Positions 8,809 to 56,358 of a DNA stretch of 64,000 nt are shown here, piece after piece. The DNA comes from Methylococcales symbiont of Iophon sp. n. MRB-2018 (lineage in GTDB: Bacteria > Pseudomonadota > Gammaproteobacteria > Methylococcales > Methylomonadaceae): the NCBI GenBank assembly GCA_003666325.1, contig QPIL01000121.1, forward strand, positions 1 to 64,000, written 5' to 3'. The notes under the pieces were generated by a model. It was not told the DNA's origin, searched no databases, and saw only the letters and a program-made list of their open reading frames with translations. The translations under genes and the position numbers were made by a program. The stretch's first letter is position 1, and every line of letters starts with the position of its first letter.

Positions 8809-8870
8809 GTAATGTTTAGCACAAGAGCAGAGCAATCGGGCTTAAAAGCAGTTGAAATTATAATTTAGAT

Positions 8871-8883
8871 ACGCTGAGGTCTC
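8871..8883. repeat. Isolated family-A MITE end
   Basis: ACGCTGAGGTCTC matches the right terminal repeat of the family-A elements, but no internal element sequence is recognisable beside it. It may be a solo end or a decayed copy. Confidence 0.35.
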
Positions 8884-9030: not shown

Positions 9031-9184
9031 AAAAGTAGGCTGGAGTGATGCTTGGCTACTCAAAATCATTGCTCCATTTTGAAACGGTCTTTTTATTTAT
9101 TGCAAAGCGTTTAGATAGCTCTGCATTACTGAGACTGGATTATTGTATAATTTCTCTTGAATGCAAATTTGTTTTTGCATTCGT
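9031..9184 (-). pseudogene. Relic of a transposase N-terminus (IS481-like HTH)
   Basis: On the minus strand, translation gives KQICIQEKLYNN and, after a frameshift, LSNAELSKRFAINKKTVSKW followed by SNDFE, a stop, and PSITPAYF. The second part is a typical helix-turn-helix from IS481-like or related transposases, in which the HTH is followed by a conserved Thr-Pro region. At least one frameshift and one in-frame stop show the copy is dead. The family name is an inference from the HTH style. Confidence 0.5.
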
Positions 9185-9292
9185 GTGATAGCCTTGGGGC
9201 ATATTAATTCCTTTGTAGTGAAAGTTTAATAGGTTATCAGGGCTGTCCTTTATTATTCTTAAATCAGGTATAACGTGGTGAAACTATACACT

Positions 9293-9383
9293 TTTAGTCT
9301 TTAGTCTTTAGTCTTTAGTCTTTAGTCTTTAGTCTTGAGTCTTGAGTCTTGAGTCTTGAGTCTTGAGTCTTGAGTCTTGAGTC
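9293..9383. repeat. Heptanucleotide array, (TTTAGTC)x6 then (TTGAGTC)x7
   Basis: Thirteen head-to-tail 7-bp units fall into two homogeneous blocks differing by one base per unit. The second block is the same unit as the array at 2486-2569. Just downstream, GTTTTTAAGGGCTGACTA and TTTTTTGAATATAGTATAA match the ends of the composite repeat and family-B elements, so this is another copy of the same repeat assemblage in decayed form. Confidence 0.95.
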
Positions 9384-9917: not shown

Positions 9918-9926
9918 ACTAAAATA

Positions 9927-10069
9927 GTAACTACTCAGCTACTCCTTTATTTTGTCCAATAGCGACGTTGAAAGTGCTTATTTACACCTTGTAAGCTCCG
10001 CACTTTCGGCCTTACTCTTGAATAAAATAGAGGGCAATTAAGCGGTTACGGAGTACGCTGAGTAGTTGC
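9927..10069. repeat. 143-bp inverted-repeat element in the fae 3' region
   Basis: The left end GTAACTACTCAGCTACTCC and the right end GGAGTACGCTGAGTAGTTGC are imperfect inverted repeats. A second palindrome, GAAAGTGC...GCACTTTC, lies inside. The block sits between the fae stop and its terminator and would be transcribed as a long hairpin. It resembles a small non-autonomous element, but I found no second copy in the window. Confidence 0.5.
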
Positions 10070-12463: not shown

Positions 12464-12522
12464 CAGTTATCCTTATAAAGTATAGGAAAAATAGTATTGA
12501 GAAATAGTATTCATCTCATTTT

Positions 12523-12672
12523 GAGGCCTCAGCATAACTCTGGACTGGATAAAAAAGTGATAGCATTTTTCAGGTTTTAGTCAAAAATACCAGTGTAATA
12601 GTGCGTTATTTTGGCTGAAAGATGGAAAACTTCTAGCCTTTTTTATCCGTTCATGAGTTATGCTGAGGCCTC
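12523..12672. mobile_element. Family-A MITE between mch and orf5
   Basis: The 150-bp element has ends GAGGCCTCAGCATAACTC and GAGTTATGCTGAGGCCTC and is flanked by a perfect 5-bp duplication ATTTT at 12518-12522 and 12673-12677. It has the same internal sequence as the copies at 31914-32072 and 36773-36934. It has no ORF. It lies inside the H4MPT operon and would be transcribed as a long stem. Confidence 0.9.
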
Positions 12673-12684
12673 ATTTTACTTGAT

Positions 12685-14770: not shown

Positions 14771-14916
14771 AAAATGGCTAAGATGCTAAAATCAACGGTT
14801 GCAATTCTCTCGTAATAAGTACTCAAATTGTTCTTTATATGCTGAGATCTCTTATTATCAAAAAAGTTACAGCCGTTTAAAAAAATAATTGGTGTAAGTA
14901 TAAAATAAAGCACTAA

Positions 14917-17247: not shown

Positions 17248-17394
17248 ATTTTCTCCTAAGTTCTTACATGAACGCTACATTCTAAAATTTTGCAGATTAT
17301 GAAAGGTTTGAAAAATATTATCTATAGGAAAAACTCCCAATTATTGAACGATACACTTTAAATATAAGCCCGATAGTGCATAATGAGACCTCAA

Positions 17395-17459
17395 CATAAC
17401 GCATGAACGGATAAAAAAGGCTAGAATTTTTCTCTCGTCCAGAGTTATGCTGAGGTCTC
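17395..17459. mobile_element. Short (65 bp) family-A MITE between receptor and sensor-kinase genes
   Basis: The ends GAGACCTCAACATAACGC and AGTTATGCTGAGGTCTC match the family. The target duplication ATAAT is perfect at 17390-17394 and 17460-17464. About 85-95 bp of the internal sequence present in longer copies is missing. It lies in the divergent promoter region of the TonB receptor and the two-component system. Confidence 0.9.
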
Positions 17460-22697: not shown

Positions 22698-22931
22698 GAG
22701 ACCTCAGCATAACTCTGGAACGGACAAAAAAAGTGATAGAATTTTTCAGGTTTTATACCATTTTCAAGAATAAATGGTGTGATATAGTGCCTATTTTTAT
22801 GCCTTGTGTTTTATAAAAAAATCTAAGCTTACTTATTGATAATCTTCCTATTTTTTATAAATGCAGAATGTGCAAAAATGAGTGCTAGATTGTATCATTT
22901 ATTTTTGAAAATGGGTTTAGTCAAAATACAA
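22698..22931. mobile_element. Family-A MITE fragment interrupted by a family-B MITE
   Basis: The left part, 22698-22755, starts GAGACCTCAGCATAACTCTG and continues to TTTTTCAGGTTTTA. Family-A sequence resumes at 22917 as TTAGTCAAAATACAAG, exactly where other copies continue. Between them is a 161-bp family-B element with TTA duplicated on both sides. The right half of the family-A element beyond about 22931 is lost or replaced. Confidence 0.85.
22756..22916. mobile_element. Family-B MITE, copy 3 (nested)
   Basis: It begins TACCATTTTCAAGAATAAAT and ends TTTATTTTTGAAAATGGGT, with TTA at 22753-22755 and 22917-22919. The internal sequence shares the pattern of copies 1 and 2 (ACTTATTGATAAT, GAGTGCTAGAT) but is diverged. 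Confidence 0.85.
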
Positions 22932-22965
22932 GGGTTATTGTTAGCTACCATTACTAGAGAATTAT

Positions 22966-29277: not shown

Positions 29278-29388
29278 TTTTATGTTTTCTTTATTTTTGA
29301 AAATGGTATAACAATGTTTGTTTATAGCAACAGACCTTAATACAATAATTTTGAAAGTCAAGAATGATTACTTTTATAGGCAAATGGA

Positions 29389-31913: not shown

Positions 31914-32072
31914 GAGACCCCAGCATAACTCATGAACGGATAAAAAAGGCTAGAAGTTTTCCATCTTTCAGCCAAAATAACGCGCAATAGCCCACTATTA
32001 CACTTATATTTTGACTAAAACCTGAAAAATTCTATCGTTTTTTTCTCATCACCAGAGTTATGCTGAGGTCTC
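31914..32072. mobile_element. Family-A MITE between convergent genes
   Basis: A 159-bp element with ends GAGACCCCAGCATAACTC and AGTTATGCTGAGGTCTC, flanked by a perfect 5-bp duplication CTAGA (31909-31913 and 32073-32077). It is a full-length, probably recent copy. Confidence 0.92.
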
Positions 32073-36772: not shown

Positions 36773-36934
36773 GAGATCTCAGCATAACGCATGAACGGAT
36801 AAAAAAGACTAGAAGTTTTCTATCTTTCAGCCAAAATAACGGGCAATAGCTCACTATTATGCTTGTATTTTGACTAAAGAGATCTGAAAAATGCTATCCC
36901 TTTTTTATCCGTTCCAGAGTTATACTGAGGTCTC
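36773..36934. mobile_element. Family-A MITE between sppA and the PepSY gene
   Basis: A 162-bp element with ends GAGATCTCAGCATAACGC and AGTTATACTGAGGTCTC. TAAC is present on both sides, but the 5-bp duplication is not perfect, so it is older. The internal sequence includes a local GAGATCTG insertion relative to other copies. Confidence 0.88.
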
Positions 36935-55999: not shown

Positions 56000-56358
56000 C
56001 TTGACAACTAGCCACTCCCCTTAGAGTGATTCCTCGGTCAAGGCCGTTTGAATAGCAACAAGAGAATTAGTGCCTTTGCTTGCCATCGTTTGCAGCTAAC
56101 TTGATATGGCGAGACCTCAGCATAGCACAATAAACATGGGCATAAACCTCAGAACAAAAGCACCCTCGATACTTTTTGTCGCCCCATAAATGATATGATG
56201 AGCTCAACTGAAAATGTTTCTGCATCAAAAAAACTATAGAACCATGGTCATCGTGACTTACCCTATTCAATCAAAAGCACACAAAAAAAAGAAACTAACA
56301 CTTTTTCAGCTCCTTTTGTCCCCTAAATTAATAATTGAATAAACAGGATCAACTAGAA
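56000..56358. other. Gap between mltD and the desaturase gene
   Basis: It holds a solo family-A MITE end (GAGACCTCAGCATAG at 56111-56125) and otherwise nothing recognised. The minus-strand ORF at 56067-56270 overlaps it and is not supported. A promoter for the desaturase is expected here but was not clearly seen. Confidence 0.45.

Follow-up and report, generated by a model that had tools for sequence, protein, structure and literature searches.

The repeats described here belong, with a probability that we put at about 0.93, to a MITE family in which 16-bp terminal inverted repeats (TIRs), those of a 1.2-kb IS5-family IS, enclose a non-coding foldback core (consensus 159 bp; derivatives of 141 to 162, 75 and 57 bp). 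The DNA analysed (64,000 nucleotides, hereafter the window) is part of contig C59 in the 2.09-Mb draft genome (G000; 98.6% complete) of the Methylococcales symbiont of Iophon sp. n. MRB-2018. GC content of the window is 37.1%, and its genome agrees in size and GC content with those reported for methane-oxidising sponge symbionts from Campeche (2.0 to 2.2 Mb, 37.7% GC; PMC6474228). The 16-bp end GAGACCTCAGCATAAC was found 12 times in the window at up to three mismatches (0.23 expected), and genome-wide, at up to two mismatches, 170 times, against none for a reversed control pattern; the genome counts come from pattern searches and fetched stretches rather than a full annotation. The elements are short (57 to 162 bp), non-coding, dispersed and present in many copies (170 ends per 2.09 Mb). 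Bacterial MITEs in general, of which one in the Cardinium endosymbiont of Oedothorax gibbosus (PMC9769881) is an example, are likewise short, non-coding, TIR-bounded and multi-copy.

To characterise the family across the genome, 39 distinct complete elements were collected from loci fetched from the window's genome. Most were 149 to 162 bp long; three measured only 75 bp and one 57 bp. Identity of the full-size copies to the 159-bp consensus was 89 to 97.5% in 34 of 35 cases (73.5% in the other). Exact 5-bp target duplications flanked 24 of the 39 elements, and the flanks matched at four or more of five positions in 31, whereas shuffled right flanks gave 1.0 on average and never more than 5. 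The duplicated 5-mers consisted nearly entirely of A and T, and exact duplications of 6 to 8 bp were absent from all 39. Terminal inverted repeats (here of 16 bp) and a target duplication of fixed length are features of MITEs. The 75-bp form occurred at three sites, each with a different duplication (two exact, one near-exact). High copy number, palindromic structure and intergenic position might also recall a REP/BIME family moved by RAYT (Y1 HUH) transposases. To our knowledge, REPs have neither long TIRs nor target duplications; here both are present, and the matching transposase described below is a DDE rather than an HUH enzyme. We rejected this explanation as having practically no chance of being correct.

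In the window itself, the sequence-only reading had counted four elements, one interrupted copy and several solo ends. This inventory stood, except that the second element starts at 17385 and not at 17395, 10 bases away; the three perfect duplications that it had listed (ATTTT, ATAAT and CTAGA) were all seen. The first element (12523-12672, 150 bp, complete) has the TIR GAGGCCTCAGCATAAC and the duplication ATTTT (12518-12522 and 12673-12677), and lies on the minus strand (87.5% match to the 159-bp consensus in reverse orientation, 71% forward). The second (17385-17459, plus strand) is an internally deleted 75-bp form with the duplication ATAAT, located between a divergent gene for a TonB-dependent receptor and one for a sensor kinase. 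A complete 159-bp element at 31914-32072 (plus strand, 96% identity to the consensus) is flanked by CTAGA, and one of 162 bp at 36773-36934 (plus strand) by a 4-bp duplication, TAAC. The interrupted copy comprises a left part (22698-22755) and a resumed part (22913-22947) that has lost its right TIR. Between them lies another repeat of ∼160 bp (c.22756-22914) with inverted CCATTTTCAAGAATAAA-like ends; one end of this repeat is matched exactly, over short lengths, at several positions of the related genome G001, and a similar end is found at 29287. Solo ends were located at 8868-8883 (minus strand, two mismatches), at 56111-56126 (plus strand, one mismatch) and, more weakly, at 14836-14851 (minus strand, three mismatches). 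Alignment to G001 stops at ∼8875 at the first of these and just before the second (∼56107), and the intergenic region of G001 that corresponds to the third holds a 141-bp MITE.

Other repeats occur in the window. Positions 9924-10067 hold a palindromic repeat of ∼140 bp with inverted ends (AACTACTCAGC...GCTGAGTAGTT) and many copies in G001, which is probably a second small mobile family. A segment of ∼220 bp at 9073-9294 has multiple copies in G001 at 94 to 97% identity, some of them at contig ends, and is followed at c.9296-9385 by 7-base units (TTTAGTC / TTGAGTC) in tandem.

Mobility of the family was evaluated by comparison with G001, a sister species and most probably the Methylococcales symbiont of a Hymedesmia sponge. 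Eight other genomes of the genus were searched, and G001 alone carried the ends in numbers (178); much of the window aligns collinearly with it, at ∼91 to 96% identity. At 12523 and 17385, and at 81785 outside the window, the corresponding site in G001 is empty and contains a single copy of the target (ATTCT and ATAAT at the first two); two of these three single copies carry one substitution. At 31914, G001 is without the element and the flanks are also slightly changed. At 36773, it has a separate 141-bp MITE ∼7 bp upstream with its own duplication, ACTAT. None of the five compared sites was therefore shared, an insertion polymorphism typical of MITEs. An element at 64762 found no placement in the G001 stretches fetched. 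Empty sites in G001 alone leave the older state undecided; the single target copies fit gain better than precise loss, and the separate insertions at 36773 show gains on both sides. This comparison shows that insertions were made after the window's genome and the sister species split.

Stable folding and position near gene ends suggest another possible role, in which they would serve mainly as functional hairpins, in RNA or DNA (mRNA 3′-end stabilizers, attenuators or terminators), kept for regulation, with mobility as their origin only. The elements fold strongly on either strand (z = −5.3 to −12.4; −74.4 kcal/mol and z = −11.7 for the RNA of 12523-12672), the elements at 12523 and 31914 lie 13 and 14 bp past the stop codons of an mch-type and an RNase E/G-type gene, respectively, and 38 of the 39 complete elements are intergenic, in a contig (C59) that is ∼82% coding by a simple count of open reading frames. 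However, foldback structure is usual for MITEs too, and selection against gene disruption would also be expected to leave the elements between genes. There was no match to an intrinsic terminator or promoter around 12523 and no Rfam match in the window, and the sister species shares no compared site. We consider regulation as the main role to be very unlikely. Copies at orthologous sites in distant species, without duplications, had been named beforehand as the mark of a regulatory repeat and were not seen, the closest of the eight other genomes searched in the genus being the only one with the family in numbers; the comparison of insertion sites proposed at the same time, made here against the sister species, found them lineage-specific. 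With 24 of 39 exact duplications over a null of 1.0 and with empty orthologous sites, the reading of the repeats as MITEs with 5-bp target duplications is borne out: they are mobile elements and not a conserved regulatory repeat.

A parent for the family was found in other bacteria. The Cycloclasticus symbiont of Bathymodiolus heckerae (G083; LWTL01000122.1, L063/L147) carries an intact 1205-bp IS whose 16-bp ends are identical to those of the MITEs and which, unlike them, encodes an intact 340-amino-acid DDE transposase (228.7 bits against NF033581, the IS5-family model, with a cutoff of 140; Pfam DDE_Tnp_1 and DUF772 also above cutoff). This copy is without an intact target duplication. G001 holds several incomplete copies of this IS, for the most part at contig ends, the pattern that collapsed repeats leave. 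Sharing of ends with an autonomous element is a feature of MITEs. Relatives at 52 to 86% identity were found in a Cycloclasticus sponge symbiont, “Ca. Endonucleobacter” (Gigantidas childressi), Marinomonas, Marinicella and further gammaproteobacteria, and a plasmid of Marinomonas algicola carries one at 77.6%. Seven loci of relatives have 5-bp duplications (L149, L152, L153, L160, L162, L168 and L174), in some cases with an end that is mismatched at one to three positions. Of 369 genomes drawn from the class, three gave transposase matches at an E value of 1e-60 or better (42 to 44% identity), with GAGACCTTTGC-type ends, and viral contigs yielded no relative of it. The nearest named IS that we met is ISAba23 of Acinetobacter, a 1249-bp member of the IS5 family whose inverted repeats are 16 bp and whose target duplication is 5 bp long (PMC4110982), features found again among the parent IS and its relatives. 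Its DDE transposase is 38.6% identical to that of the parent over 91% of the query. ISAba23 is similar in length to the 1205-bp parent, but the single GAGACC-type end seen in it is of the GAGACCTTTGCACGAAACAG type rather than the GAGACCTCAGCATAAC of the parent IS and the MITEs; it is also autonomous, whereas the elements in the window are non-coding.

From the absence of a transposase in the window, the sequence-only reading had argued that a parent with the same ends must exist elsewhere. No relative of the parent transposase was found in the window, and the parent does exist in other genomes; in the window's own assembly, however, it is represented by a relic only. Searches that used the IS and transposase of Cycloclasticus, together with the right and left IS ends of G001, recovered 71 bp of the right end (G000:C83:18458-18528), 92% identical to that of G001. 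Past the shared terminal bases they recovered nothing of the left end, nor did they recover an intact parent IS, whose presence in the same genome is common for MITEs and not required of them. Weak fragments of other IS5 elements are present in the assembly, and a cousin of the parent IS lies at G000:C58:9674-10271 (L136:675-1272), a degraded IS5-like element of 598 bp whose ends are of the GAGACCTTTGCATAAA type. Multi-copy elements can drop out of a draft assembly. Many IS copies of G001 left tails of >100 bp at contig ends, while none was found in the window's genome; with the 71-bp relic as the only trace, the parent is either gone or unassembled.

The MITE core bears no similarity to the parent IS beyond the first 16 to 19 bp and had no match at an E value of 1e-3 among the IS and MITE loci of other genomes. 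Rather than internal deletion of this IS, its source could be a sibling IS that has the same ends. The mismatch of the core, and the existence of diverged copies of the IS family in several bacteria, might indicate that a different IS with the same ends, and not that of Cycloclasticus and G001, moves the elements. We regard this as unlikely, given that the 16-bp ends are identical and 5-bp duplications occur with both IS and MITEs, that G001 carries the same MITEs alongside the parent IS, that the window's genome retains the 92% identical right-end relic, and that in the more distantly related IS5 elements examined the ends are instead of the GAGACCTTTGCA type. On the evidence of shared ends, we infer that the transposase of the IS with GAGACCTCAGCATAAC ends is the mover of the MITEs. 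It would presumably bind the ends that both have in common and move the non-coding elements in trans, each insertion duplicating a 5-bp A+T-rich target; the parent would then have been lost from the window's genome, or left unassembled in it, after the family spread.

The family now has an assigned parent type, a duplication length fixed at 5 bp and sites known to be empty in a sister species, and its insertions are usable as lineage markers. A limited search of the open-licence literature returned nothing on MITEs of these bacteria. That the parent IS turns up in several families of marine bacteria, some of them living with deep-sea mussels and sponges, suggests that it has spread horizontally. 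It is conceivable, though rather improbable, that the IS circulates among bacteria of deep-sea hosts (the methanotroph, Cycloclasticus and Endonucleobacter) and that, in the window's genome, the MITEs spread recently and outlived their parent; any further movement would then need reinfection by the IS from co-resident bacteria. The finding is of modest interest, chiefly for the way in which the parent IS is spread among the bacteria of deep-sea hosts.
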